Part shown: positions 1,410 to 26,658 of the stretch, in pieces
Layout of the letters: each line of letters starts with the position of its first letter
Numbering within the stretch: position 1 is the first letter of the stretch
Source: Jannaschia pagri
GTDB taxonomy: Bacteria > Pseudomonadota > Alphaproteobacteria > Rhodobacterales > Rhodobacteraceae
Assembly: GCF_019655435.1 (NCBI RefSeq)
Contig: NZ_BPFH01000001.1
Span: forward strand, 620,001 to 684,000
DNA length: 64,000 bases
Direction: 5' to 3'
Position numbers and translations under genes: made by a program
Notes under the pieces: generated by a model
Seen by the model: only the letters and a program-made list of their open reading frames with translations
The model's database searches: none
Told to the model about the DNA's origin: nothing

Positions 1410-2636
1410 ATGCGCCTCTTTCCCCTGTCCCAGGCCCAAGACCTCCCGGTTTGGCGCCGCCCCGAAGCCCTTCTGATGCTCATGGCCTTCGCCATGCCGG
1501 TCGCTTTCGCGACTTGGTCTGCTCTTCTGAACAACTTCACCAAGGAGGCGGCGGGCTTCGACGGCTCCGACATCGGCTGGCTGCACACCGTGCGAGAAAT
1601 CCCCGGCTTTCTGGCCATCGGCGTGATCTTGGTCATCGTCTTCGTGCGCGAACAGGTGCTGGCCCTCACATCCCTGATCTTGTTGGGCATCGCGACGGCG
1701 CTGACGGCTGCCTTTCCCAATTTGGGGGGGCTGCTGATGATCACCCTGCTCAGTTCGATCGGCTTCCACTACTATGAAACCGTCAATCAAAGCCTCCAAC
1801 TCCAGTGGCTTCCCAAGGACCGCGCCCCCAAAATGCTGGGTGTTCTGTTGTCCGTGGGCGCGGCGGGCACCCTATTGGCCTATGGCGCCATCGTTTTGAC
1901 GTGGAGGGCCTTCGACCTTAGCTACGACATTGTCTATTGGATCGCTGGCGGCTTCACGGCGGCTGTGGCGGCCTTCGCCCTTCTGGCCTATCCGCAATTC
2001 GAAAGCCCCCATCCCCAAACCAAAGAATTCGTTCTGCGTCGCCGCTATTGGCTCTATTACGTCCTCCAGTTCATGTCCGGTGCCCGGCGGCAGATCTTTA
2101 TCGTCTTCGCGGGATTCATGATGGTGGAGCGCTACGGGCTCAGCGTCGATCAGACGACCGCGCTGTTCATGGTAACCATGGGCGTGAACATGATCATCGC
2201 GCCCACAGTGGGGCGGCTCGTCGCTCAATTCGGCGAACGCCGCGCGCTGATCATCGAATACGGCGGGCTCACCGTGGTCTTCGTTCTCTATGCCGGGCTC
2301 TATGTCTACGATTGGGGCGTTTGGATGGCCTGCGCGTTGTTCGTCGCCAACAACGTCTTCTTTTCCTTGGCCTTGGCCATCAAAACCTACTTCCAAAAGA
2401 TCGCCGCCCCCGGGGACATCGCCCCGACGGCGGCGGTGGCGTTTACGATCAATCATATCGCAGCGGTGTTCTTGCCGGCGTCCCTTGGCTACCTGTGGTT
2501 GGTGTCGCCCACGGCAGTCTTTGGCATCGCCGCCTGCATGGCGCTGGTCTCCCTGGGCTTGTCGATTCTGGTCCCCCGCCACCCGGTGGACGGGCAAGAG
2601 ACCATCCTGTCGCGCCCCCTGGCCGCTGCGGAGTAG
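1410..2636 (+). CDS. MFS transporter, 12 membrane segments
   Basis: A 408-residue integral membrane protein with about twelve hydrophobic segments in two six-helix halves joined by a charged cytoplasmic stretch around residues 200-215 (FVLRRRYW). This is the architecture and length of the major facilitator superfamily. Recognisable features include [14 protein letters not shown] after helix 7-8, a variant of the MFS loop motif. I cannot assign a substrate. The start at 1410 has only a weak ribosome-binding site. The gene stands alone, with 580 bases of non-coding DNA before it, and is followed after 34 bases by msrA in the same direction, so the two may be co-transcribed. Confidence 0.8.
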
Positions 2637-2670
2637 CGCCCCCATATCCTGGCGAAAGGAGATGCAATCC

Positions 2671-3321
2671 ATGTTTCAAATCTTCGCCAAACCTGTCGAG
2701 ATGGTGACACCCGAAGCCGCGTTGCCCGGACGGTCCACGCCAATCCCAACAGCCGACACCCACCACGTTTTTGGGACGCCCCTGTCCAACGACGTTCCCG
2801 ACGGTTTGGAGGAGGCGATGTTCGGAATGGGCTGCTTCTGGGGGGTCGAGCGGATGTTCTGGCAAGTCCCAGGGGTACATATGACCCTGGTCGGCTATGC
2901 TGGCGGGTTCACGCCAAACGCCACCTACGAGGAAGTGTGCTCGGGCCGGACAGGGCACAACGAAGTGGTGCGCGTGATCTTTGACCCAACGGTGGTCACC
3001 TACAACGAGTTGCTCCGGGTGTTCTGGGAAGGCCACGATCCAACGCAGGGCATGCGCCAAGGCAATGATCGGGGCACGCAATATCGCTCAGGGATATACA
3101 CCTATTCCGACGCTCAGATGGCAGCGGCCAAAGACACCGCCGACGCCATGGCCCCGCGCCTGCGCGCAGCGGGTTTGGGTGCTATCACGACAGAGATTGT
3201 CCCGGCGCCAACCTTCTTCCACGCCGAAGATTATCACCAGCAGTATCTGTCGAAAAACCCCGGTGGCTACTGCGGGATCGGCGGCACAGGCGTGACCTGC
3301 CCCATCGGCACCGGCGCCTGA
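2671..3321 (+). CDS. msrA: Peptide methionine sulfoxide reductase MsrA
   Basis: This 216-residue enzyme reduces the S epimer of methionine sulfoxide in proteins, using thioredoxin. The MsrA signature GCFWG is at residues 54-58, making Cys55 the catalytic residue. The C-terminal Cys201 and Cys210 (YCGIGG...TCP) match the resolving cysteines of the long, E. coli-like MsrA form. Length fits that form (about 212). I chose the ATG at 2671 because AGGAG (2657-2661) lies nine bases before it; an in-frame ATG at 2662 would sit on top of the ribosome-binding site. Two strong hairpins follow the stop. No signal peptide is seen, so it should be cytoplasmic. Confidence 0.95.
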
Positions 3322-3330
3322 TCCGGCGGA

Positions 3331-3352
3331 CACCTCGGCTCACGCCGAGGTG
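3331..3352 (+). terminator. Hairpin after msrA
   Basis: Perfect 9-bp stem CACCTCGGC/GCCGAGGTG with a four-base loop, ten bases after the msrA stop. There is no T-run, so it may act with the second hairpin just downstream or stabilise the 3' end. Confidence 0.6.
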
Positions 3353-3354
3353 CG

Positions 3355-3372
3355 CCCTCGCGCGCGCGAGGG
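3355..3372. repeat. Perfect 18-bp palindrome
   Basis: CCCTCGCGC followed directly by its reverse complement GCGCGAGGG. It lies three bases after the msrA hairpin and could form a second stem or a cruciform. It is probably part of the msrA termination region. Confidence 0.5.
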
Positions 3373-3856
3373 CTACCCCGAGTGACGGGACGGACGTTCC
3401 TCGGGGTGTCGATCAAAGATGAATGCGAAGGTTAGAGGCCTTAGCCAGTTATCTGGAACACCCCCTGCGATGCGTTTCGCCAGAAGCATAATACGGTACG
3501 TAAAAGCGAAGCCGTAGCGAGGCCATGGCCTAGCAAAAGAAGCAGGCTATCGAAGCGTCGCGCGGCTCCTGCAGCACCAAGTCGAACCAGCCATGGACAT
3601 CCCGCAACACCGCCCACACCTGGGATGACCCTTTGGCTCAAGCCGCATTTGAGCGGCGGTTCGTTGGGCACAACCCCGACCCCGATCAATTTCCGCGCAT
3701 GGGTACCCACAGACCTCCGATGGCGCGGCTAGCCAAGCGTCCCGGCGTTAGACCGACCGGATAGCATGACGACGCCCGCGCTCCTGCCGAAAGCCGTTGC
3801 GCAAGGGTCAGGCCTTTGGAATAGCCACACCAGACCGCTGTCTTGGAGGAGCCGAC
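3373..3856. other. Non-coding stretch upstream of the TenA-like gene
   Basis: No gene that I can support. The segment around 3480-3560 is visibly poorer in G and C than the neighbouring genes. Open frames here (for example 3441-3710 on the minus strand) have no recognisable motifs and poor codon use, so this may be decayed sequence. A weak promoter candidate for the next gene is TTGCGC (3797-3802), a 17-base spacer and AATAGC (3820-3825). Confidence 0.5.
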
Positions 3857-4519
3857 ATGCGTATAACCGACGATTTGAAACGCTCCGTGCAGGACGACTG
3901 GGACGCGGCCACGGACCATCCGTTTTGCCGGGATCTTGCTGCGGGCACCCTGCCTCTAGACAAAATGCGTTGGTATCTCGTTCAGGACTACAAATTCATC
4001 GACCAGTTCGTCCGGCTGCTGGCGACGGCCATCGCCCATGCGCCGACCTTGAAAGACGGGATCCCGGCAGCGCAGTTTCTTGGCTTAGTCACCAGTACCG
4101 AGAACACCTACTTTGTCCGCAGTTTTGAGGCGCTTGGCGTCTCTCAAGCGCAAATCGACGGGCCAGCGGCCCCAGAGACCATTGCATTTCAAGACCTCAT
4201 GGCCGAAGCGCGCCACTCCGGTCGATACGAACAAATGCTAGCCGTGCTGGTGGTGGCGGAATGGTCCTATCTGACCTGGGCCACGCGCCAGGCGGATTAC
4301 GATCGCGCCCTGCCCTTCTATTTCGCCGAGTGGATCGACTTGCATACGGGCGACGGCTTTGCTGGCGTTGTCGCTTACCTGCGGGGGCAGCTTGACGGGA
4401 TCTGGGGGGATCTCTCCGAAGCGGAGCAACTGGCCGCTGCCGATCTGTTTAAACGGGCCGTTCGGTGCGAGCGGGCGTTCTTCGACGCGGCCTATGGGTC
4501 CACCTGGGACGCGCCGTAG
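3857..4519 (+). CDS. TenA family protein without the active-site cysteine
   Basis: This 220-residue, mostly helical protein has the TenA/thiaminase-II layout: HPFCRDLAAGTLPLDKMRWY at residues 21-40, then LVQDYKFIDQF. TenA enzymes hydrolyse aminopyrimidines in thiamin salvage. In the classical form a Cys lies in a PC.W.Y motif; here the matching segment is VVAEWSY (residues 132-138), with Ala134 at the Cys position followed by Glu135. That points to the TenA_E subgroup, which lacks the Cys. The start at 3857 has GGAGGA six bases before it; longer upstream frames lack one. The gene stands alone, with no thi genes nearby and long non-coding flanks. Exact substrate unknown. Confidence 0.8.
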   Translation: MRITDDLKRSVQDDWDAATDHPFCRDLAAGTLPLDKMRWYLVQDYKFIDQFVRLLATAIAHAPTLKDGIPAAQFLGLVTSTENTYFVRSFEALGVSQAQIDGPAAPETIAFQDLMAEARHSGRYEQMLAVLVVAEWSYLTWATRQADYDRALPFYFAEWIDLHTGDGFAGVVAYLRGQLDGIWGDLSEAEQLAAADLFKRAVRCERAFFDAAYGSTWDAP

Positions 4520-4543
4520 GCCTGCTCATTTAGATATCTGTCA

Positions 4544-4574
4544 GGCGCTTGGTTTACTCTCGAAACCAAGCGCC
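4544..4574. terminator. Strong hairpin after the TenA-like gene
   Basis: Perfect 12-bp stem GGCGCTTGGTTT/AAACCAAGCGCC with a seven-base loop, 24 bases after the stop codon. The AT-rich inner stem and symmetry let it work in either direction, although no long T-run follows. Confidence 0.65.
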
Positions 4575-5063
4575 CACTCCTTCTGACGTGTTTTGGCCAC
4601 CCGCCGACCGGCGCGTTAGTGCGAAGCGATGTCATTCAAGGCGACCAACAGATTGCGCACCCTTGAGCCCTTTTGCGGAAGGTCTCACCGCATCCCGCGT
4701 CTTGGTTGCCATAGGGTATTGAGCCGCATGATATGCATCAACCGCAACGGAAGAAGGTCGCGCGTTACAACCGAGGAATGCGGATCTCGGCAAACAGTTT
4801 AGTTTCAAAGGTAAGCGGCGGACGAGAATGCGTTATTGGCCCTTTCGGCCCCTGGGTAGCGGTGCCCTGACGTGTACCAACCTAGATCATGTTCGAAAGG
4901 CTGACGGACCGGCATAGCCTAGCACCGAGTCACGACGAGGCCTGCGCGAAGGTCTACCTGTTGGACCGCGCTTTCCCCGCTGCTTCACACATCGCGTGAA
5001 GGAGGAGCCTTAACGCGTAAGGTCCAGCAAGGTCGCCCGGGGGTGTACAACGATGTCGGCCCC
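4575..5063. other. Non-coding stretch between the TenA-like gene and hemB
   Basis: No gene recognised on either strand. Short inverted repeats are present, such as CTTCAC/GTGAAG (4983-5000) and CCTTA/TAAGG near 5010-5023; the latter could end hemB transcription, which arrives from the right. Base composition looks more random than in the neighbouring genes. Confidence 0.5.
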
Positions 5064-6074
5064 CTATTCCCATCCGGCTCGGATCAGTTTGGCCGCCTCG
5101 GGCGCGAAATACGTCAGCACGCCGTCGCAGCCTGCGCGGCGGAAGGCCATCAAGCTCTCCATCATGGCCTTTTCCCCGTCGATCCAGCCATTGCCTGCCG
5201 CCGCCCGGATCATCGCGTACTCCCCGCTGACCTGATAGGCATAGGTCGGCACGGCGAAGCGGTCCTTCACCTCGCGGCAGATGTCCAGATAGGGCATGCC
5301 CGGCTTGACCATGACCATATCCGCGCCCTCACCAATGTCGCGGGCCACGGCGCGCAGGGCCTCGGCCCGGTTCAAGGGGTCCAGCTGATAGGTCTTCTTG
5401 TCCCCTTTGAGCGCGCCAGACGCCCCCACGGCATCGCGGAACGGTCCGTAAAACGCGCTGGCGTATTTGGCGGCATAGGACATGATCGTCACCTCGCCAT
5501 GGCCCGCCTGTTCCAAGGCAGCACGCATGGCGCCGATGCGCCCATCCATCATATCCGACGGCCCCAGGATGTCCGCCCCCGCCTCGGCCTGGGCGACGGC
5601 CATCTTGACCAACGCTTCGACGGAGCGGTCGTTGACGATGATCCCATCCTCGACAAAACCATCGTGGCCGTCGGGGTTGTAGGGGTCGAGCGCGATATCC
5701 GTCATGACGGCAATATCCGGCACCTGGGCTTTGATCGCGCGGATCGCACGATTGGTCAGATTTTCGGGGTTCCAAGCCTCGGCGCAATCGGGCGTCTTCA
5801 CGTCGTCCAAGGTGTAGGGAAACAAGCAGATCACGCGGATCCCCGCAGCGTGGGCCTCAGCCGCTGCTTCGACGGTCAGATCGACCGAACGGCGGATGAC
5901 GCCGGGCATGGACGCGACCTCCTGCGTGACGCTTTCGCCGTCGCACAGGAAGACCGGCCAAATCAGATCATCGACCGACAGCCGCTCCTCCCGCTGCAGC
6001 GCGCGGAGCGCGGGCGTGCGCCGCATCCGGCGGGGGCGGGACAGGGGAAAGGCGGGCGGAGCTTGTCTTGTCAT
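5064..6074 (-). CDS. hemB: Porphobilinogen synthase (delta-aminolevulinate dehydratase)
   Basis: This 336-residue enzyme condenses two 5-aminolevulinate molecules to porphobilinogen, the second common step of haem and chlorophyll synthesis. The two active-site lysines are visible, in SYAAKYASAFYGPFR and in the Schiff-base motif MVKPGMPYLD. The loop that carries zinc-binding cysteines in yeast or human enzymes reads TDIALDPYNPDGHDG, with Asp in place of Cys. This is the metal-poor or magnesium type found in many alphaproteobacteria. The start was set at 6074, where AAAGGTG precedes the ATG; the frame extends 18 codons further without homology-like sequence. An inverted repeat lies in its leader (6116-6136). 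Confidence 0.95.
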   Translation of the reverse strand: MTRQAPPAFPLSRPRRMRRTPALRALQREERLSVDDLIWPVFLCDGESVTQEVASMPGVIRRSVDLTVEAAAEAHAAGIRVICLFPYTLDDVKTPDCAEAWNPENLTNRAIRAIKAQVPDIAVMTDIALDPYNPDGHDGFVEDGIIVNDRSVEALVKMAVAQAEAGADILGPSDMMDGRIGAMRAALEQAGHGEVTIMSYAAKYASAFYGPFRDAVGASGALKGDKKTYQLDPLNRAEALRAVARDIGEGADMVMVKPGMPYLDICREVKDRFAVPTYAYQVSGEYAMIRAAAGNGWIDGEKAMMESLMAFRRAGCDGVLTYFAPEAAKLIRAGWE

Positions 6075-6115
6075 GATGCACCTTTGTGACACCTGACCTC
6101 GGTCGCACGACCTGG

Positions 6116-6136
6116 GGGGCGGGATCAAGCCGCCCC
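6116..6136. repeat. Inverted repeat upstream of hemB
   Basis: GGGGCGG/CCGCCCC with a seven-base loop, about 40 bases before the hemB start. It could be an operator or leader structure, or simply a GC-rich hairpin. Function unknown. Confidence 0.35.
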
Positions 6137-6199
6137 ACCTTGCATTCCCGTACCCAGGCGGGCCACACGGGGGGCGCGGCGATATGAGGAACCCGGCCC

Positions 6200-6724
6200 T
6201 TGGAACTCTATTGGCTCGAAAGTGCCTTCGAAGTCATCGACTTCCGCTCCTTCTCGAACCTGTGGTTCTGGATTGCGCTGGCCACGCTCTGGTCGACCGC
6301 ATCCCATTGGGTCGTGGGCGTGCCCTTCGATATTGTGCGTCGGGCGGCCAGCGGACACGAGCAGGCCCTGGCCGATATGCACACGCTCGCCAACATCCAG
6401 GCACGCCGATTGATCTATATCGCCGATGCCACGGGGCTGGTGTCCACCGCTCTGACCTTCTTCACGGTGACGATGCTGTCCCTGCTGGGGTTTCTCTATT
6501 GGATCGAGTTCGCCCAGGCGATCTTGCTGCTCTTCCTCCCGATGATGATCGTGGGCTGGCTGTCCCTGCGCACGGCCAGGCAGGTAGAGGGGCTGGACCC
6601 ATACGACCTTGGCAACCTATTGGCAGCCCACCGCCGACAGGTGCAATTCGTGGGGATCATCGCGATCTTTGTGACCTCCATGTGGGGGATGTGGGTGAAC
6701 ATCAACCAATCCGTCCTGTCGTGA
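6200..6724 (+). CDS. Conserved small membrane protein (clade label: component of SufBCD complex)
   Basis: A 174-residue protein with four likely membrane helices: around residues 22-42, 75-102, 105-125 and 148-168. Between helices 1 and 2 is a charged stretch (FDIVRRAASGHEQALADMHTLANIQARR). I recall that similar proteins next to mfd in Rhodobacteraceae are labelled component of SufBCD complex, but nothing in this sequence resembles SufB, SufC or SufD, and that label should not be taken as function. The best start is a TTG at 6200 with AGGA nine bases upstream; the only nearby upstream ATG (6184) is in another frame. It ends 47 bases before mfd. Confidence 0.7.
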   Translation: MELYWLESAFEVIDFRSFSNLWFWIALATLWSTASHWVVGVPFDIVRRAASGHEQALADMHTLANIQARRLIYIADATGLVSTALTFFTVTMLSLLGFLYWIEFAQAILLLFLPMMIVGWLSLRTARQVEGLDPYDLGNLLAAHRRQVQFVGIIAIFVTSMWGMWVNINQSVLS

Positions 6725-6737
6725 CGCGCGCGCCCTG

Positions 6738-6771
6738 TTGACACGCCCGGTAGGGCGGTTACCTGACCGCC
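6738..6771 (+). promoter_or_regulatory. Possible mfd promoter and abutting inverted repeat
   Basis: TTGACA at 6738-6743 is a consensus -35. Seventeen bases on, ACCTGA (6761-6766) is a poor -10. GGCGGT/ACCGCC (6754-6759 and 6766-6771) form an inverted repeat ending exactly at the ATG. If this is the promoter, transcription would begin at or beside the start codon. Confidence 0.35.
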
Positions 6772-10266
<3,495 letters not shown>

Positions 10267-18766: not shown

Positions 18767-19399
18767 ATGAGCGCCCTGTCCCCCGATGCCGTAACGGCAC
18801 TGTTCACCCGATCTGACGATCAGTTCCTCTTTGCCCGTTGGGGACGCCCCATTGCACCTGTGGTGTTTGGGGTCACCGACGAAACTGTCGCCGTTCTCAA
18901 AGGGGCAATCGAGGCGCTATGCCTGCTCACCTCGCACAAGATGGCCGAGACGGACCCGGAACTGGGGGCCAACCTCATGGTCTTCTTCATCCAGGATTGG
19001 CGTGAACTGACCGACACTCCGAACTTGGACCGATTGATCCCTGACCTTGCCCCCCTTGTGGCGCGGTTGGTGGCGCAGGATGCGAACCAATACAGGATCT
19101 TCCGCTTCGATGCCCAAGGGGCGATCCAGGCGTGCTTTAGCTTCATCCGAATGGACGACCAATTGGCCCAGGTCAGCGCCGAGACCCTGGCGCTCAATCA
19201 GATGGTTCAAGCCATGCTGCTGTGGTCCGACAAGGCGTTCCATGACGCGTCTCCCCTGGCTATGGTCGATGGCCGGGCCGTCCTACGCCCGGATGTGGCC
19301 GACGTGATGCGCGCAGCCTACGACCCGGTTTTGCCGCCCATGTCCCAAGACCCGGCCACGGCAATGCGGCTTTCGGCACGGCTGGGGCGCGCCCAGTGA
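18767..19399 (+). CDS. Conserved protein of unknown function upstream of ybgC
   Basis: A 210-residue soluble protein without signal peptide or membrane segments. It contains a hydrophobic middle (LGANLMVFFIQDWRELT) and many acidic residues. I do not recognise a domain. The start ATG at 18767 gives MSALSPDAV; an upstream extension would run into the prmA leader. Its stop overlaps the GTG start of ybgC by four bases (GTGA), so the two genes are translationally coupled. That, and its place at the head of the tol region, suggests a role linked to the envelope or to YbgC, but this is only inference from position. Confidence 0.7.
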   Translation: MSALSPDAVTALFTRSDDQFLFARWGRPIAPVVFGVTDETVAVLKGAIEALCLLTSHKMAETDPELGANLMVFFIQDWRELTDTPNLDRLIPDLAPLVARLVAQDANQYRIFRFDAQGAIQACFSFIRMDDQLAQVSAETLALNQMVQAMLLWSDKAFHDASPLAMVDGRAVLRPDVADVMRAAYDPVLPPMSQDPATAMRLSARLGRAQ

Positions 19400-19806
19400 C
19401 GCCACATGTCTGGCAGGTCCGTGTCTATTACGAAGACACCGACCTGGCGGGGATCGTGTATCACGCGAACTACCTTAAATTCATAGAGCGAGCCCGCTCG
19501 GAGATGGTGCGGGACCTCGGCATCGACCAGGCGCGCTTGCGTGCGGAGGGGCGCGTCTTTGCTGTCACGCACCTGGAGGCCACGTTCCGCGCGCCCGCCC
19601 GATATGACGACGTCCTAGTGATCGAAACCTCCGTTCAGCGCCTCACGCCAGTGCGGTTTGTCTTAGATCAGACTGTTTTGCGCGACGGGGCGCCTTTGTT
19701 TATCGCCCGCGTTACCGTGGCCTGCATGGATCTGGAGGCGCGTCCGAAACGGCTTGACCCCGGCCTGCAGCAGGGGCTTGCCGCGCAGGGGTTCACTAAA
19801 TCTTAG
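19396..19806 (+). CDS. ybgC: Acyl-CoA thioesterase YbgC (tol-pal associated)
   Basis: A 136-residue hot-dog-fold thioesterase. YbgC hydrolyses acyl-CoA (or acyl-ACP) thioesters and is usually the first gene of the tol-pal operon. The family motif VYYEDTDLAGIVYHANYLKFIERAR is at residues 9-33 with the catalytic Asp in DLAG. Length fits (about 134). The start is a GTG overlapping the preceding stop; no other start fits the fold. In most bacteria ybgC lies directly before tolQ; here a secreted-protein gene and 458 non-coding bases come between. Confidence 0.95.
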   Translation: MTPHVWQVRVYYEDTDLAGIVYHANYLKFIERARSEMVRDLGIDQARLRAEGRVFAVTHLEATFRAPARYDDVLVIETSVQRLTPVRFVLDQTVLRDGAPLFIARVTVACMDLEARPKRLDPGLQQGLAAQGFTKS

Positions 19807-19855: not shown

Positions 19856-20635
19856 ATGCGTCTGCCGACAGTCCTCCTTGTTACCGCCCTGGCGATCTGG
19901 CCAGCGATGCTGGCCGCAGCGGATGATGCCCTGTGCGACCCAGGGTCTGTGGCGTGTCAGGTCTTTACCGCTCAGCACGCGCCAGACTGCATGGCCATTG
20001 ACCGGGCGGATGCGCGGCTGACGTGCTGGGATCGGATCGCGCGCCTGGCCAATTGTCCGTCTGTCGACCCAGACGTACGCCGCCTGCGCTGTGCCTTTGT
20101 TGCGGCCCGGGGCATGTCGGACATTACCGCGATTGAGTCCACATCAACCGGCGCGGGCGCAACTTGGCGTCAGGAAACGGAGGCGCAGCCATTCGGCCCC
20201 AGCCAGGATGTTTTCCTGTCCGTTCCCAGCCTCGGGGTCTCTTCCTGTGGCCTGCGTCGGCGGGCAACTCTGATCTTGCGATGTCTTCGGGATCGGACGG
20301 CAGCGCTGGTCATCCATGACTGCGCCACCCCCCTCATAGGAAACGAAGGATGGGCCGTGGATCTGCGCTTGGACGACGGACCGGTGGAGCGTGCGCGCCT
20401 CCGCCCGACACACATGGGCGATGGCTTCGGGCACTTCACGTATCAGCCTGCGCGGATCCTGATCGAGCGTCTGGAAACCGCCGAACACTTGCACCTGCAG
20501 TTTGCGGACATTGAGGGGGTCAACGCGACCCTCTCCTTCCCCGTGGCTGGGCTTTCGGACGTGGTGGTGCCCCTGAAACAGGCCTGTTCCTGGTCGGAGC
20601 AACCCCCGTGGGAGCGCGAAGGGACAGACCCCTAG
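19856..20635 (+). CDS. Secreted protein resembling TagO/VasI (T6SS-associated family)
   Basis: A 259-residue protein with a signal peptide (residues 1-20, MRLPTVLLVTALAIWPAMLA) and several cysteines. After the signal it has DCMAIDRADARLTCWDRIA, like the short C...I...RL.C.D motif at the start of TagO/VasI proteins. The C-terminal part (W.VDLRLDDGPVERARL, then FADIEGVNATLSFPVAGLSDVVVPLKQAC) follows the TagO pattern of a domain ending in a Gly-Leu...Pro-Leu...Cys segment. TagO proteins accompany type VI secretion, but no T6SS gene is in this window. The match is by eye. It sits between ybgC and tolQ, so an envelope role is plausible. Start at 19856 chosen for the signal peptide. Confidence 0.6.
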   Translation: MRLPTVLLVTALAIWPAMLAAADDALCDPGSVACQVFTAQHAPDCMAIDRADARLTCWDRIARLANCPSVDPDVRRLRCAFVAARGMSDITAIESTSTGAGATWRQETEAQPFGPSQDVFLSVPSLGVSSCGLRRRATLILRCLRDRTAALVIHDCATPLIGNEGWAVDLRLDDGPVERARLRPTHMGDGFGHFTYQPARILIERLETAEHLHLQFADIEGVNATLSFPVAGLSDVVVPLKQACSWSEQPPWEREGTDP

Positions 20636-21093: not shown

Positions 21094-21792
21094 ATGGAAA
21101 CGGAAGTGCTGGCCGCCGCCAGCGAGATCGACTTTTCGATCTGGGCATTGTTTTTGCGCGCGACGCTGGTCGTGAAGCTGGTGATGATTTCGCTCTTCGC
21201 CGCATCTGTCTGGGTTTGGGCAATTTACATCCAGAAGGTTCTGCAGTTCCGGATCGCCCGATCCCGCGCCGCAGCCTTTGATCGGGCGTTCTGGTCGGGC
21301 GAGCCGCTTGACGAACTCTACGACCAAATCGGGGACGCGCCGGGATCTGCTTCGGAACGGATCTTCTCCGCCGCCATGACCGAATGGAACCGCAGCCACC
21401 GCGACGACGGCGCCCTGATCCTGGGGACGCAGGCGCGGATCGAGCGAACCATGGACGTGGCCATTGCCAAGGAACGGGACCGGCTGACCAGCGGCTTGAC
21501 CTTCCTGGCGACGACCGGCTCCACCGCGCCCTTCGTGGGATTGTTCGGCACCGTTTGGGGCATCAAACATGCATTTGAGCAAATCGCCATCAGCCAGAAC
21601 ACCAACCTAGCCGTCGTGGCGCCCGGCATTGCCGAAGCGTTGCTGGCCACGGGGATCGGCCTCGTGGCAGCAATCCCGGCGGTGATTTTCTACAATAAGC
21701 TCAGCCGGGACGCCGACCGGATCACCGGAAACTACGAGGCCTTTGCAGACGAATTCGCGACGATCCTGTCGCGGCAGTTGGACGCCGCCTGA
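21094..21792 (+). CDS. tolQ: TolQ, proton channel subunit of the Tol-Pal system
   Basis: A 232-residue inner-membrane protein with three membrane helices: about residues 17-40, 133-155 and 170-192. TolQ with TolR uses the proton gradient to energise TolA for outer-membrane constriction at division. The MotA/TolQ/ExbB signature is visible in FLATTGSTAPFVGLFGTVWGIKHAFE and in APGIAEALLATGIGLVAAIPAVIFYN. Length fits (about 230). The stop TGA is followed immediately by the tolR ATG with no spacer, so translation is likely coupled. Confidence 0.96.
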   Translation: METEVLAAASEIDFSIWALFLRATLVVKLVMISLFAASVWVWAIYIQKVLQFRIARSRAAAFDRAFWSGEPLDELYDQIGDAPGSASERIFSAAMTEWNRSHRDDGALILGTQARIERTMDVAIAKERDRLTSGLTFLATTGSTAPFVGLFGTVWGIKHAFEQIAISQNTNLAVVAPGIAEALLATGIGLVAAIPAVIFYNKLSRDADRITGNYEAFADEFATILSRQLDAA

Positions 21793-22269
21793 ATGGGCGC
21801 GGGCACGGTTAAATCGAGCGGTGGGGGTCAGCGGCGACGCCGTCGCAACGGCGGCAGTCAACCGATGTCTGAAATCAACGTCACACCCTTTGTGGACGTG
21901 ATGCTTGTGCTGCTCATCATCTTCATGGTCGCGGCCCCTCTGCTGACGGCAGGGGTGCCCATTGAGTTGCCGGAAACCGCCGCAGCCCCCCTCCCCCAAG
22001 AACAGGAGGAGCCGTTGGCTGTGACAGTCGGCCCGGAAGGCGAGGTCTTTATCGGCTCGACCGAAGTGCCCCGGGCGGATCTCGTGACGCGGTTGACCGC
22101 GATTGCAGGGGAGCGGCAGGGCGACCGCGTCTTTCTGCGGGCGGATGGGTCCGTGCCCTATGCCGAGGTCATGGTCGTGATGGGGGCGCTCAACGCAGGT
22201 GGCTTCCGCAACATCGGCCTGGTGACCGACGCAGGCGGCCCGACCCTGGACGCCGCCGAGGGCGAATAG
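21793..22269 (+). CDS. tolR: TolR, proton channel subunit of the Tol-Pal system
   Basis: A 158-residue ExbD/TolR protein: a basic cytoplasmic tail (RRRRRN), one membrane helix near residues 32-50 with the essential Asp in NVTPFVDVMLVLLIIFMVAAP (motif spans residues 29-49), then a periplasmic domain that ends in PYAEVMVVMGALNAGGFRNI, the conserved C-terminal pattern. It is somewhat longer than E. coli TolR (142) because of the N-terminal tail. It starts on the base after the tolQ stop and its own TAG stop is followed directly by the tolA ATG. Confidence 0.95.
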   Translation: MGAGTVKSSGGGQRRRRRNGGSQPMSEINVTPFVDVMLVLLIIFMVAAPLLTAGVPIELPETAAAPLPQEQEEPLAVTVGPEGEVFIGSTEVPRADLVTRLTAIAGERQGDRVFLRADGSVPYAEVMVVMGALNAGGFRNIGLVTDAGGPTLDAAEGE

Positions 22270-23406
22270 ATGGAGCGGCGGACGGCCGTGGCCCTCTCAG
22301 CGACCGCCCATGGGGGGGTCCTGCTCTGGGCGCTTGTGGCCGGATGGCTGCCGACGCCCCCCGAAGAGGACAGCATCGAAGTTGCCGCCGTGTCCGTGAT
22401 CTCATCGGCAGAATTTGACGCCCTGACCTCGGTCGCGCCCACGGAACCAGCAACGCCGACGGCCCCGGTTGCTCCGGTCGTCCAGCCACCAGAGACACCC
22501 GAAGCCCCCGCAATCACCCCAGCCCCCGACACGCCACCGCCTCAGACGGCCGCGCCAGAGGTCCCGACGCCAACGGTGCCTGAACCCCTGCCCGATACCG
22601 CGCAATTGATCCAGCCGCCGCCCCCGACCGAGGTGCAACCAGAGGTGCCGGAGCCGCCCTCCGCCCCCGCCGAAGCCCCCGATGCGCCGGTCTCGCCCCG
22701 GCCCGCACCACGCCCGGCACCGCGTGTGGCCGCCACGCCTGCGCCCGCGCCACCGCCCGCCACCGAAACGGCCCCAGTGGTCGAAGCCCCGCCAGCCCCG
22801 GCTGAGGCGGAGGAACCGGTGGAGCCCGCAGACACCCCCGCGGCCCCAGAAGAGGCCGCGCCCGTCATCGTAACGGAAGCCGACACACCGTCTGCCGCGC
22901 CGGAGCGGTCGACCCGCCCGACGCGCAAGCCCACGCCGCCGCCCCGTGCCGTTGCGACTGCAGAGACGGATGCGGCCCAAAGCGCACCCTCCGCTGCGGC
23001 GCAGGAAGCGGCTCCAATCGACACAAGCGCCGCCCTTGCCGAAGCCCTGGGCGGAGGCGCCCCTGCACCCGCAGCCCCAAGCGGTCCGCCTCTGACCCAA
23101 GGGGAACGGGACGGGCTGCGTGTCGCGGTCAGTTCCTGTTGGGTGGTGGATCCGGGCGCGCCCTCGGCCCGAGTTGTCGTGACGCTGGCCTTTGAGATGG
23201 ACCAAGATGGGAAGCCCAGGACCAACACAATCCGACAGATCGCGGCATCGGGCGGCGACGGCGCAGCGACCCAAAGGGCCTTCGAAGCGGCACGTCGCGC
23301 GGTGATCCGCTGTGCCCGTCAAGGGTATGACCTGCCCGAAGACAAATACGCCCAATGGCGGGAGATCGAGATGACCTTCGACCCCACGACCATGAGGTTG
23401 CGGTAG
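22270..23406 (+). CDS. tolA: TolA, energy-transducing link protein
   Basis: A 378-residue protein with one N-terminal membrane helix (residues 8-27), a long Pro/Ala/Glu-rich periplasmic spacer (about 45-280) and a C-terminal domain (about 285-378). TolA spans the periplasm and joins TolQR to Pal. The spacer is proline-rich rather than the Lys/Ala coiled coil of E. coli, as usual in alphaproteobacteria. The C-terminal domain has SCWVVDP, FEMDQDGKPRT, and AFEAARRAVIRC...DLPEDKYAQWREIEMTFDP. The same domain occurs alone in the next gene. Start directly follows the tolR stop. Confidence 0.95.
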   Translation: MERRTAVALSATAHGGVLLWALVAGWLPTPPEEDSIEVAAVSVISSAEFDALTSVAPTEPATPTAPVAPVVQPPETPEAPAITPAPDTPPPQTAAPEVPTPTVPEPLPDTAQLIQPPPPTEVQPEVPEPPSAPAEAPDAPVSPRPAPRPAPRVAATPAPAPPPATETAPVVEAPPAPAEAEEPVEPADTPAAPEEAAPVIVTEADTPSAAPERSTRPTRKPTPPPRAVATAETDAAQSAPSAAAQEAAPIDTSAALAEALGGGAPAPAAPSGPPLTQGERDGLRVAVSSCWVVDPGAPSARVVVTLAFEMDQDGKPRTNTIRQIAASGGDGAATQRAFEAARRAVIRCARQGYDLPEDKYAQWREIEMTFDPTTMRLR

Positions 23407-23814
23407 ATGTCCTGCGACCTTCAGCCCCGGGTCTTGGTGGGCGTGGCGGCTTTGATGGCGCTCCTCGCGCAGCCTGCCCTGCCCCAAGGCGCCACACCCC
23501 CCTTTGAGGCGCAGACGCGGGCCGTCGTGACCCAGATCGCCCCGTGTTGGTTGGTCGACCCGTCCGATCCTGCCGGGCAAGTGGCGCTAACGCTCAGTTT
23601 CGAGTTGGACCGGGGCGGGCGGCTGCGCACCGACACCATCCGCCTTGAGCGCGCCTCGGTCGGTGAAGGCCCAGCTTTGGACGAGGCATTCCAGGCCGCG
23701 CGCCGGGCGATTTTGCGCTGTGGCATCAAAGGCTTCGACCTGCCCGCAGACCGATACGACGACTGGCGCTTCGTTGAGGTCACCTTTGACCCGACGCACG
23801 AGGAGGCGGACTGA
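23407..23814 (+). CDS. Free-standing TolA C-terminal domain protein, periplasmic
   Basis: A 135-residue protein with a likely signal peptide (about residues 1-27, ending ALPQG) followed directly by a copy of the TolA C-terminal domain. Roughly half of some 85 aligned residues are identical to the tolA domain just upstream: CWLVDP, then FELDRGGRLRTDTIR, then AFQAARRAILRC, then DLPADRYDDWRFVEVTFDP. The membrane anchor and the proline-rich spacer of TolA are absent, so it should be soluble in the periplasm. It starts on the base after the tolA stop, between tolA and tolB. A tandem duplication is the obvious origin. It could bind TolB or Pal without being energised. The family match is secure; the function is inference. 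Confidence 0.85.
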   Translation: MSCDLQPRVLVGVAALMALLAQPALPQGATPPFEAQTRAVVTQIAPCWLVDPSDPAGQVALTLSFELDRGGRLRTDTIRLERASVGEGPALDEAFQAARRAILRCGIKGFDLPADRYDDWRFVEVTFDPTHEEAD

Positions 23815-23939: not shown

Positions 23940-25271
23940 ATGGTGAGTAGATTGTTTCTGATACTGGCCCTTTTGTTTGCCAGCCTCGGCTTGTCGGTGC
24001 CCAGTATGGCGCAGGATGGCCCGCTGCGGATCACGATCACCGATGGTGTGATTGAGCCGTTGCCCTTTGCCGTTCCGACCTTCGTGGCGCGCAACAGCGC
24101 TGCAAACGACATCGCCCAAGACATTACGCGGGTCATTGCCGCAGACCTGACCAACACCGGGTTGTTCCGGGAAATCCCCCAGGATGCCCATATCGCGCGG
24201 GTGTCGAGCTTCGACTCGACGGTGCAATGGTCCGACTGGAAGGCGATCAATGCCCAGGCGCTGATCACGGGATCTGTCCTGGTCGAGGGGGATGGCCGCT
24301 TGGTCGTTCAGTTCCGCCTGTTTGACGTCTTTTCCGAGGCGCCCCTAGGCGAGGGTCTGCAATTCGTCGGCACGGCGGATGGCTGGCGGCGGATGGCCCA
24401 TAAGGTGGCCGACGCAGCTTATAGCCGGATCACGGGCGAAGGCCCCTATTTCGACAGCCGCGTCGTCTTCGTCGCTGAAACCGGCCCCAAGAACGCGCGG
24501 CAGAAGCGCTTGGCTGTCATGGATTACGACGGCGCCAACGTGCAGTATCTGACCTCGTCGGACAGCATCGTCCTGGCGCCCCGCTTTTCGCCCGATGGTA
24601 GCCAGATCATCTATACGAGTTATGCCAGTGGCTTCCCCCGCGTGACGATCCTGGATGTGGCCTCTCTCGGGCGGCGGACGGTTGGGGATAGCAACGCAAA
24701 CATGAGTTTCGCGCCGCGTTTCTCGCCCGATGGCAGCCGGGCTGTCTATTCCGCCGAAGTGGCCGGGAACACCGATATCTATCTGCTCAACATCGCTTCC
24801 GGCCAAAGCACACGTCTTACGACGGAGCCGTCGATTGAGACCGCGCCCAGCTTTTCCCCCGACGGCAGCCGCATCGTGTTCGAAAGCGACAGGTCCGGCG
24901 CGCCACAGATCTATGTCATGTCCGCAGGCGGCGGCAGCGCCAGTCGGATCAGCTTTGGCGAGGGACGGTATGGCACGCCCGTTTGGTCCCCCCGCGGCGA
25001 CCTGGTGGCCTTTACCAAGCAGAACCGCGGTCGCTTCCACATCGGCGTCATGCGGATTGATGGCTCGGAGGAGCGGTTGCTCACGGGCGCATTCCTGGAC
25101 GAAGGCCCGACCTGGGCCCCCAATGGCCGTGTCGTTATGTTCACCCGCGAAAGCCCTGGCGCCCAAGGCGCGCCCGCGCTGTATTCGGTGGACATCACAG
25201 GCCGAAACCTACAACGCGCGGCCACACCCGCCGCCGCATCGGACCCGAACTGGGGTCCGCTTTTGAAATGA
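23940..25271 (+). CDS. tolB: TolB, periplasmic beta-propeller of the Tol-Pal system
   Basis: A 443-residue periplasmic protein with a signal peptide (residues 1-24, ending PSMAQ). The N-terminal domain (about 25-160: [16 protein letters not shown]...[10 protein letters not shown]) is followed by a propeller built from repeated PRFSPDGS and [11 protein letters not shown] modules with [12 protein letters not shown]-type strands. TolB binds Pal and the TolA C-terminal domain. Length matches the family (about 430-445). It begins 125 bases after the free TolA-domain gene and its stop overlaps the pal start region. Confidence 0.96.
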
Positions 25272-25279
25272 GGATGACG

Positions 25280-25813
25280 ATGATGAAGTTTCAGGCCTTT
25301 CTCGTGGTATGGGCCCTGGTCCTGGCCGGTTGTGCCGGCGGGCCGTTTGGCGGTGGCGGCGATGATGCGGGCGCCGTCGACCTCAACGCCAGCGGCGCTG
25401 GCGCGGGCGCGGGCGACTTCACGCCTGGGGGCCCCAACGATCCGAGTTCGGTCGCCTACTTCCAACAGACCGTGGGCGACCGCGTGCTGTTTGCCGTGGA
25501 CCAGTCCAACCTCACACCCGAAGGGCGCAGCGCGCTGACGCGACAGGCCCAATGGCTGACGGCCAACCCGGGCTACACCGCGCTGATCGAAGGCCACGCC
25601 GACGAACAAGGCACGCGAGAATACAACCTCGCCCTCGGCGGACGCCGGGCCAATGCGGCGCGGGACTTCCTCGTCTCCCAAGGGGTGTCGGCGGCCCGGT
25701 TGCGGACTATCAGCTACGGCAAAGAGCGCCCTATCCAGGTCTGTTCGACTGAAGCCTGCTACAGCCAGAACCGGCGCGCGGTCACCGTCCTGGCGGCTGG
25801 GGCGGGCGTGTGA
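25280..25813 (+). CDS. pal: Peptidoglycan-associated lipoprotein Pal
   Basis: An outer-membrane lipoprotein of 177 residues from this start. The lipobox is LVLAGC with Cys as the acylated residue. A Gly/Ala-rich linker leads to an OmpA-like domain: VLFAVDQSNLTPEG, LIEGHADEQGTREYNLALGGRRANAARDFL, and ISYGKERPIQ. It ties the outer membrane to peptidoglycan and to TolB. Four in-frame ATGs (25268, 25274, 25280, 25283) are possible; AGGA at 25271-25274 is well placed only for the last two, so I prefer 25280. The stop overlaps the cpoB ATG. Confidence 0.95.
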   Translation: MMKFQAFLVVWALVLAGCAGGPFGGGGDDAGAVDLNASGAGAGAGDFTPGGPNDPSSVAYFQQTVGDRVLFAVDQSNLTPEGRSALTRQAQWLTANPGYTALIEGHADEQGTREYNLALGGRRANAARDFLVSQGVSAARLRTISYGKERPIQVCSTEACYSQNRRAVTVLAAGAGV

Positions 25814-26658
25814 TGCGCCTTGCCCTGCTCCTGGCGCTGGCCCTGGCGACCTCGGCGGCGGCTCAGGATCAGACAGAAACCCTAGCGGACATTCGTCAAA
25901 AGCTGTCGGCCCTGAACACCGAGATGCAGGCCCTGACGCGGGAGTTGTCAACGACCGGGGCCGCTGGGCTGGGGATCCAAGGGACCAGTTTCCCGGAGCG
26001 GGTCATCAGCATGGAACAACAGTTGCAGCAGTTGACGGCGCAAACCGAAAGGCTGTCGTTCCGCGTCGAAACCGTTGCTCGGGACGGAGGAAACCGGATC
26101 GAGGATTTGCGCTTTCAACTGTGTGAACTGACACCGGACTGCGATCTTGGGGCCCTGCCCGACCCCGGGCCGCTTGGGGAAACCGCTCCGGAAAGTCCTG
26201 CGTCGGCGCCCACCGCGGGCGCCCCCATACGTCCCACGGCCCGACCGGATCGCAGTGTACCGGGGCCGGAACTGGCCGTCGGGGAGCAAGCGGATTTCAA
26301 CGCGGCCAAAGCGTTGTTCGACGGGGGCCAGATGGCCGAAGCCGCCCAAAGTTTTGAGCGGTTCGTGACGAACTATCCGACGGGGCCCCTGTCGACCGAA
26401 GCCCAGTTTCTGCGGGGAGAAGCGCTGGCGCGACAAGGACAGCACGCCAACGCCGCGCGCGCTTACCTAGAGGCGTTTTCTGGCACGCCAGAGGGACCGC
26501 GCGCGCCGAATGCGCTGTTGGGTTTAGGCCAATCGCTCGGGTCCCTGGGTCAAACCGATGAGGCCTGCCTGACGCTGGCCGAGATCGCTGTCCGGTTCCC
26601 CTCTTCGCCAACCGTGGCCCAAGCCAACTCCGCACAGGCGGGGCTTGGCTGTCGCTGA
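25813..26658 (+). CDS. cpoB: CpoB/YbgF, tol-pal system coordinator
   Basis: A 281-residue periplasmic protein with a short signal peptide (about residues 1-18, ending SAAAQ). Residues about 22-95 are a heptad-rich trimerising coiled coil (IRQKLSALNTEMQALTREL and MEQQLQQLTAQTERLSF). A Pro-rich linker follows, then TPR repeats: FNAAKALFDGGQMAEAAQSFERF, EAQFLRGEALARQGQ, ALLGLGQSLGSLGQTDEAC. CpoB tunes peptidoglycan synthase PBP1B together with TolA in E. coli. The ATG is the last base of the pal stop; the C-terminus overlaps tilS by 14 bases. Confidence 0.93.
   Translation: MRLALLLALALATSAAAQDQTETLADIRQKLSALNTEMQALTRELSTTGAAGLGIQGTSFPERVISMEQQLQQLTAQTERLSFRVETVARDGGNRIEDLRFQLCELTPDCDLGALPDPGPLGETAPESPASAPTAGAPIRPTARPDRSVPGPELAVGEQADFNAAKALFDGGQMAEAAQSFERFVTNYPTGPLSTEAQFLRGEALARQGQHANAARAYLEAFSGTPEGPRAPNALLGLGQSLGSLGQTDEACLTLAEIAVRFPSSPTVAQANSAQAGLGCR

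Follow-up and report, generated by a model that had tools for sequence, protein, structure and literature searches.

A putatively secreted TolA domain III protein in the tol operon of Jannaschia pagri and its relatives on phages and plasmids

The tol-pal operon of Jannaschia pagri harbors, between tolA and tolB, a gene for a putatively secreted protein with the predicted fold of TolA domain III (TolA-III). The gene, termed tolA2 here, occupies positions 23407-23814 of the window, the whole stretch of 64,000 nucleotides that was analysed. Genes of this type recur behind tolA in the family Rhodobacteraceae, apparently arose more than once, evolve in a fast but constrained manner, and have relatives on mobile elements. 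The best reading of these features, which we hold tentatively and at somewhat less than even confidence, is that a TolA tip devoid of its motor is used in conflicts with phages or bacteriocins.

The tolA2 gene and its predicted product

Analysis of the window revealed a standard tol-pal operon plus tolA2, all on the forward strand and in the order tolQ-tolR-tolA-tolA2-tolB-pal-cpoB. The genes tolQ (21094..21792; PF01618, 125.9 bits), tolR (21793..22269; PF02472, 95.5 bits), tolB (23940..25271; PF04052 and PF07676) and pal (25268..25813; PF00691) were assigned by domain models, the cpoB/ybgF-like gene (25810..26658) by TPR models in addition to its position, and tolA (22270..23406) by its operon position and sequence. 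TolA has 378 residues, consisting of an N-terminal anchor, a Pro/Ala-rich spacer and a domain III at approximately residues 269-378. The tolA2 reading frame comprises 135 codons from an ATG start to a TGA stop. Its start codon directly abuts the stop codon of tolA (TAG, 23404-23406) in the same frame, forming a TAGATG junction (23404..23409), and a Shine-Dalgarno-like GAGG (23394..23397) sits 9 bases 5' of the start. Upstream of the operon, a gene at 19874-20635 (+), located between a ybgC-like thioesterase gene (19396-19806) and tolQ, matches VasI of type VI secretion, with a PF11319 score of 34.8 bits over a cut-off of 26.5 and a TIGR03360 score far below its cut-off.

BLASTP alignment of TolA2 against the upstream TolA revealed 46 identical residues out of 87 (53%, E 2e-33), which bears out the initial annotation of a TolA-III copy with a signal-like start directly behind tolA. 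As that annotation also stated, the copy is devoid of anchor and spacer: neither the membrane anchor for TolQR coupling nor the domain II spacer is present, and the 135 residues pass from a signal-like segment (residues 1-27, 23407..23487) to a domain that starts at residue 33. The segment is hydrophobic at residues 9-21 as judged by eye and has a low pLDDT, with a cleavage motif less classical than in most relatives; reading of the protein sequence found no lipobox cysteine and no Pro-rich spacer. As far as can be judged from the sequence, TolA2 would be exported to the periplasm as a protein with a cleaved signal peptide. At the opposite end, an acidic C-terminal tail (23788..23811; the protein ends in DPTHEEAD) replaces the conserved Met-Arg end of TolA.

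TolA2 matched no Pfam or NCBIfam model at E values up to 1, and neither did the TolA of the same operon; a search of the PDB by sequence gave nothing meaningful. In its own genome, a single-protein search found TolA and TolA2 strongly, in addition to three weak matches (E 0.14-0.28), one of which rises to E 2.6e-5 in a profile search and represents a third, distant relative. This protein of 280 residues, encoded on contig C9 (~1441-2283, minus strand), has one N-terminal hydrophobic segment and no long spacer, and apparently consists of two divergent TolA-III-like halves, which would make it an anchored double-tip protein.

The AlphaFold2 model of TolA2, built from an alignment of 57 sequences from the window and the named loci, has a mean pLDDT of 83.4, and the ten-residue blocks covering residues 31-130 reach 83-97. 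The predicted fold spans residues 33-127 (23503..23787) and includes cysteines 47 (codon 23545) and 105 (codon 23719). Structural similarity search using Foldseek ranked 2x9a_B first, with an E value of 1.4e-3 and a probability of 1.00, and gave no match at E 0.001 or less. Superposition using VIA-align yielded a Z of 11.0 and an rmsd of 2.4 over 89 aligned residues for 2x9a_B, followed by P. aeruginosa 1lr0 (Z 10.2, rmsd 9.7), by 1tol and V. cholerae 4g7x_B (Z 10.0 each) and by P. aeruginosa 6s3w (Z 9.4, rmsd 5.7), with the TonB tips behind these TolA-III structures at Z 5 to 8. The same structures head the list for the AlphaFold2 model of domain III of the operon's own TolA, for which 2x9a_B reaches a Z of 11.2. 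The model therefore recovers the match to TolA domain III that the initial annotation expected, and TolA2 is a TolA-III protein by predicted fold. The two models differ at the C-terminus, where the TolA tip ends in a short helix (piece residues 108-111, modest confidence) and TolA2 has a poorly ordered, unstructured acidic tail. A search of a viral structure library gave no match with E below 0.3.

Recurrence, origin and divergence of the tandem copies

A profile built from twelve secreted copies was searched against 394 Rhodobacteraceae genomes, and the genomes with multiple matches were followed up at the DNA level. Matches were found in 371 of the 394 genomes, mostly one per genome and TolA itself in the cases read. 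A secreted TolA-III gene in tandem behind tolA, the arrangement that the initial annotation suggested to look for in related genomes, is present in at least 19 of the 394, the window's genome included (G000, the window; G002, G004, G025, G032, G063, G133, G144, G206, G284, G353, G354, G362, G388, G403, G408, G420, G424 and G427), a lower bound because divergent copies may escape detection. The copy in G002 is partly degenerate. Moreover, six of the 394 genomes carry a copy elsewhere than in the tol operon (G076, G199, G271, G340, G357 and G432), the second TolA of G120 is membrane-anchored, and contig-end pieces or weak matches in G007, G201, G256, G273, G409 and G423 were not counted. Within the window's genus, the tandem gene is found in one of 20 genomes, the window's own, and G310 has a copy elsewhere. 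A survey of the class over 289 genomes counted two matches in 11 genomes outside Rhodobacteraceae (G449, G476, G492, G573, G587, G594, G606, G647, G656, G665 and G670). TolA2 alone as a query found no relatives among genome contigs, plasmids and phages.

Seven of the 80 named loci also have the tandem gene, namely Marivivens sp. Ww150, Mameliella alba (split over two frames), Maliponia aquimaris, the Rhodobacteraceae MAG KhS39, Yoonia maricola, Mesobaculum littorinae and a contig filed as Enemella evansiae. The last record (L163, titled Enemella evansiae TN21-6) carries an alphaproteobacterial-type tol operon and appears mislabelled or contaminated, the name being presumably that of an actinobacterial species. 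Three TolA-like genes stand in a row in G004 (L222, 458-4153) and in G420 (L217, 881-4279), and the anchored second TolA of G120 lies in the tol operon (L230, 1089-3655). The 19 copies together with those of KhS39, Y. maricola and M. littorinae make 22 open secreted tandem copies. In 20 of these, the first possible start overlaps the end of the preceding gene by 1 or 4 bases; the two exceptions are the window's copy, the start of which abuts the stop, and that of G206, which starts 8 bases after it. The overlap of start and stop suggests that the tandem copies may be translated in a coupled manner with the preceding gene.

Comparison with 115 TolA tips revealed that the same genome's own tip is the best match for 7 of the 22 tandem rows and 3 of the 7 dispersed rows, and is not the best match for the other 15 tandem rows. 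In a tree of 140 rows and 111 columns, the switch between TolA and secreted copy has to occur 10 times or more, compared to a mean of 23.4 for shuffled labels, so the label is clustered; the starred branches force at least 3 changes. The Y. maricola copy nests within the Yoonia TolAs, and the other fetched Yoonia loci are without a tandem copy. A single ancient origin, corresponding to one clade for 18 tandem rows, was rejected with a p-AU of 0.012, although gene conversion between neighbouring genes would leave a similar picture. On the other hand, the clustered label, the meeting of long branches, the 111 columns and the fact that the own TolA is mostly not the best match speak against many origins. 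Judged from these alignments, the tip was duplicated and secreted more than once, and gene conversion could mimic part of this pattern. With lengths of 0.26-1.64, the end branches of the 18 tandem rows exceed the median over the whole set of rows (0.15); the tandem copies evolve faster than TolA.

Left out of the tree were G120, the second copy of G420 and the second copies of G388 and G002, because they are poorly alignable, membrane-anchored or degenerate. The dispersed copy of G310 and the tolA of G144 were also left out of the residue comparison, as was the tolA of G120 from the AU test, and the copies of G004, G206, M. alba, G183, G212 and G273 were never among the rows. Two routes to the tandem gene were tried and rejected. 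A tandem duplication across the tolA-tolB junction, in which tolB would have provided the signal peptide, found no support since the own tolB ranks close to chance as the source of the signal segment (mean rank 9.4 of 21 at the DNA and 10.5 at the protein level). A whole-gene duplication that kept the tolR-tolA junction is likewise unsupported as the source of the overlap, because the start offsets at this junction among the named loci are mostly +3 to +16 and never -4 in the counts shown.

Residue comparison of 18 tandem copies revealed a kept core and a lost TolA signature. All 18 retain both cysteines, the Trp after the first cysteine and a Phe in the last strand, and each Arg of the AARRA motif is present in 17. 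By contrast, Arg41 is found in 107 of 114 Rhodobacteraceae TolAs versus 6 of 18 tandem copies, Lys116 in 111 versus 7 (it is Arg in TolA2), the C-terminal Met132 in 107 versus 5, and Arg133 in 111 versus 7. Because related rows share history, the corresponding Fisher values (at most 2e-8) exaggerate the strength of this contrast. The loss of the GPP motif was not counted as evidence, since trimming of the rows to the HMM envelope start is partly responsible for its gaps. In E. coli, strand addition by TolB, g3p and colicin N takes place at the end of the last strand of TolA (PMC4339652), and in P. aeruginosa TolB displaces a C-terminal helix of TolA (PMC7066135 and PMC7391070). The tail of the Rhodobacteraceae proteins would be the equivalent of this TolB-binding place, and TolA2 may have lost either the TolA-type binding of TolB or the latch that keeps such binding weak.

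Relatives on mobile elements and a possible role in conflicts

A scan of IMG/VR yielded three contigs, representing two distinct phages, that encode a signal-like start followed by TolA-III; further scans led back to these contigs. In the first phage (L252), a 137-residue gene (8001-8414) shares 50 bases with the 3' end of a gene for a CI-like S24 repressor (7217-8050; phrog_4, PF00717), and its product passes the PF03544 cut-off. In the second (L248), a 285-residue gene (7851-8708) runs antiparallel to the genes for a lambda-type portal, capsid/protease, major tail and tape-measure proteins, ~1 kb from a HicA/HicB pair on its own strand; its product has no Pfam or PHROGs family match. Both positions are of the kind where genes expressed in the lysogen sit in prophages. 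PADLOC returned nothing for the two phage proteins, and three queries against 50,697 phage records found none.

With the L248 protein as a query, five roseobacter plasmid records were found, four of Phaeobacter and one of Salipiger. The one Phaeobacter record opened, plasmid pP36_f of Phaeobacter piscinae, contains a DUF3644 gene followed by a secreted TolA-III gene (L260, 6271-8264). The DUF3644 protein matches PADLOC PDC-S19 at 1e-107, and the TolA-III gene, annotated as 'hypothetical protein', encodes an extra N-terminal region; by their arrangement the two genes possibly form a unit. The copy on the Salipiger CCB-MM3 plasmid is located 2.6 kb from type I-C cas genes. The same search gave four Sinorhizobium hits, of which the one opened is the tolA of an ordinary tol operon, and a plasmid search with the G076 domain found nothing.

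For five of the seven dispersed chromosomal copies, a gene for an integrase, resolvase, portal or relaxase is located no more than 10 kb away. The G340 copy, of 302 residues, is 8 kb from an integrase and stands directly behind, and overlapped by, an XRE-type regulator gene (L253, 9364-10505 with the regulator), in parallel to the CI repressor arrangement of L252. The G076 copy (L256, 9732-10721) is 8 kb from a resolvase and belongs to a Zorya-like cluster (1891-9527) that encodes a ZorB-like protein (1e-27), a weakly ZorA-like protein (1e-5) and, beside the TolA-III gene, a protein with weak GHKL/Toprim (topoisomerase VI-like) matches; PADLOC describes ZorA as MotA/ExbB/TolQ-type, and a TolA-like tip beside it is striking. 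The remaining copies are 2 kb from a resolvase (G271), 3 kb from a lambda-type portal (G199), 6 kb from a relaxase (G310) and 13 kb from phage capsid genes on the same contig (G357), and the contig of the G432 copy has no recognised mobile gene. The seven genomes contain 111 integrases and resolvases in ~26 Mb; one of these falls into the 20-kb stretch around 3 of the 7 copies versus ~0.6 expected, in a background control that covers integrases and resolvases only.

Colicins and filamentous phages enter the cell by way of Tol-Pal. We propose that a soluble tip, untethered to TolQR, would encounter the segments by which phages or bacteriocins attach to TolA and would retain them away from any pulling force, thus acting as a decoy, and that in a lysogen such a tip would exclude rivals. 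The residue loss around the TolB edge would let the tip act without robbing TolA of TolB. The copies in tol operons would be host-owned versions, and those of prophages and plasmids the same module in parasites or defence islands.

Several features point to such a use in conflicts: the related genes on phages, on plasmids and near mobile genes; the patchy distribution, decay and fast evolution of the copies, together with their origin on more than one occasion; the combination of a kept core with a lost TolA signature; and the binding of Tol parasites to TolA domain III itself (PMC4339652, PMC7391070 and PMC10424213). In particular, the phage-, plasmid- and island-borne relatives lend indirect support to the decoy idea. 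However, tolA2 itself lies inside the tol operon and not on a mobile or defence element, PADLOC gave no match for TolA2, and only two distinct phages were found; we know of no phage or bacteriocin that uses TolA in these hosts. In addition, g3p and colicin N share their binding edge with TolB (PMC4339652), so loss of this edge could also weaken a decoy. Still more tentatively, we suggest that Rhodobacteraceae, their phages and plasmids repeatedly strip and secrete the TolA tip, as a convergent and mobile decoy or exclusion module against agents that use the Tol motor for entry, of which the version coupled to tolA would belong to the host.

Alternative readings and comparison with known systems

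The main rival reading, which we regard as rather unlikely, takes TolA2 as a modulator of Tol-Pal. Produced together with TolA by coupled translation, it would bind TolB at its N-terminal strand, or a different Tol partner, and exert no force, thereby buffering TolB and tuning Pal mobilisation at division, and a variant without a displaceable C-terminal helix could bind TolB more easily. The position between tolA and tolB and the overlapping starts of 20 of the 22 copies are consistent with this, as are the short C-terminal helix modelled with modest confidence in TolA and missing from the TolA2 tail, and the C-terminal [MLF]R retained by 5 of 18 tandem copies. PMC7066135 states that binding of TolB to TolA-III needs the C-terminal helix displaced and that the complexes are weak (40-250 uM), and PMC10470753 that overexpression of CenK in R. 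sphaeroides raises tolQRAB and mislocalises Pal, which its authors credit to tolQRAB. Nevertheless, a modulator fits poorly with a gene so sporadic (19 of 394 genomes in the family, one of 20 in its own genus), the lost residues are just those that TolA conserves, and copies on phages or plasmids are not predicted by this reading. As regards the binding of TolB or Pal that the initial annotation considered possible, TolA2 is altered in the C-terminal element beside the TolB-binding edge, and a review reports no binding of Pal by purified TolA-III (PMC7391070).

TolA-III might alternatively serve as a binding module for another periplasmic partner, as an adaptor or in a new function. The extra N-terminal regions of the plasmid, G271, G076 and G340 copies argue for module use in general, and Cys, Trp and Phe are invariant, and AARRA nearly so, in otherwise diverging tandem copies. 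However, many tandem copies, TolA2 included, have little but the domain, and a non-systematic look at the flanks saw no recurring partner gene beside the copies; we consider this reading improbable.

A further reading is that occasional duplication of the 3' end of tolA generates copies that persist for some time and then decay, without any selected role. It would account for more than one origin, for the long branches and for the decay in some genomes. Remnants are found in G183 (L215) and G212 (L216), and the M. alba copy (L115, 4195-4642) is split over two frames in the assembly at hand; these broken and remnant tandem copies show gene death. The decay in relatives that the initial annotation considered thus occurs in a few of them (G183, G212, M. 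alba and partly G002), not in the window's copy. The dN/dS of TolA2 against its own TolA is 0.40 at a dS of 1.3, below one, whereas a value near one was named in the annotation as a sign of decay; this value alone is weak because a rough reckoning expects ~0.55 for a neutral copy beside a constrained TolA. Pairwise values against the own TolA range from 0.11 (Y. maricola) to 0.83 (G403), with 3 of the 16 pairs saturated; values of 0.79 (G025) and 0.83 and of 0.40-0.52 (G000, G284, G362 and G353) would suit transient duplicates, whereas those of 0.11-0.29 in seven copies (Y. maricola, G340, KhS39, G133, G408, G427 and G063) and the cysteines kept in every tandem copy compared argue against them. 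In neutral simulations of TolA2 at the observed silent divergence (450 runs under three base-composition biases), none of the 450 runs kept all 9 core residues, 2-4% were stop-free, and 6.7, 2.0 and 0% under the three biases had as few amino-acid changes. TolA2 is not neutral, for which the simulation is stronger evidence than dN/dS, and we consider a mere transient duplicate quite improbable.

Amber readthrough into a TolA with two tips, which the directly adjoining TAG and ATG in one frame would allow here, is very improbable indeed, as 20 of the 22 copies overlap by 1 or 4 bases and hence lie in another frame, and the signal-like segment would stand in the middle of the protein.

Altogether, the interpretation in the initial annotation is partly supported, and the use of a motor-less tip in phage or bacteriocin conflicts remains our preferred reading. 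In R. sphaeroides, several Tol-Pal subunits are known or predicted to be essential, and a pal deletion could be made, as stated in PMC10470753 and PMC10470522, respectively. A secreted TolA tip without a motor, evolved more than once and found also beside a phage repressor, would represent either a new type of immunity in the periplasm or a new level at which Tol-Pal is controlled, and the natural TolA-III variants may reveal which residues serve TolB and which serve parasites.

The domain itself is known, and no description of a secreted protein consisting of TolA-III, in a tol operon or on phages, was found among the matches listed from mainly open-access literature. TolA2 resembles TolA domain III in predicted fold, in the two conserved cysteines and in sequence (53% over 87 residues). 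It differs from TolA in the missing anchor and spacer, the loss of the conserved Arg and the Met-Arg end, the change of Lys116 to Arg, and its existence as a separate, apparently secreted protein. The TonB C-terminal domain (PF03544/PF13103) belongs to the same fold class, with a Z of ~6 for that of E. coli and 7.7-8.2 for that of H. pylori. Unlike it, TolA2 gave no Pfam match at E up to 1 and has no anchor and no motor coupling. Inhibition by periplasmic TonB fragments would be a precedent, which was not found in the literature searched. CpoB/YbgF (here 25810-26658) is likewise an accessory periplasmic protein of the tol operon, but it is a TPR protein of unrelated fold and a standard operon member. 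A functional analogy may be the N1 domain of filamentous phage pIII, a periplasmic domain that lowers Tol-dependent entry, presumably by occupying a partner. With pIII-N1 present in its periplasm, E. coli takes up less phage and becomes less sensitive to colicin A, presumably through sequestration of TolA (PMC10424213); occupying one periplasmic partner can therefore block Tol-dependent entry. Whereas pIII N1 is a soluble phage ligand thought to trap TolA, in TolA2 it would be the TolA tip itself that is soluble.
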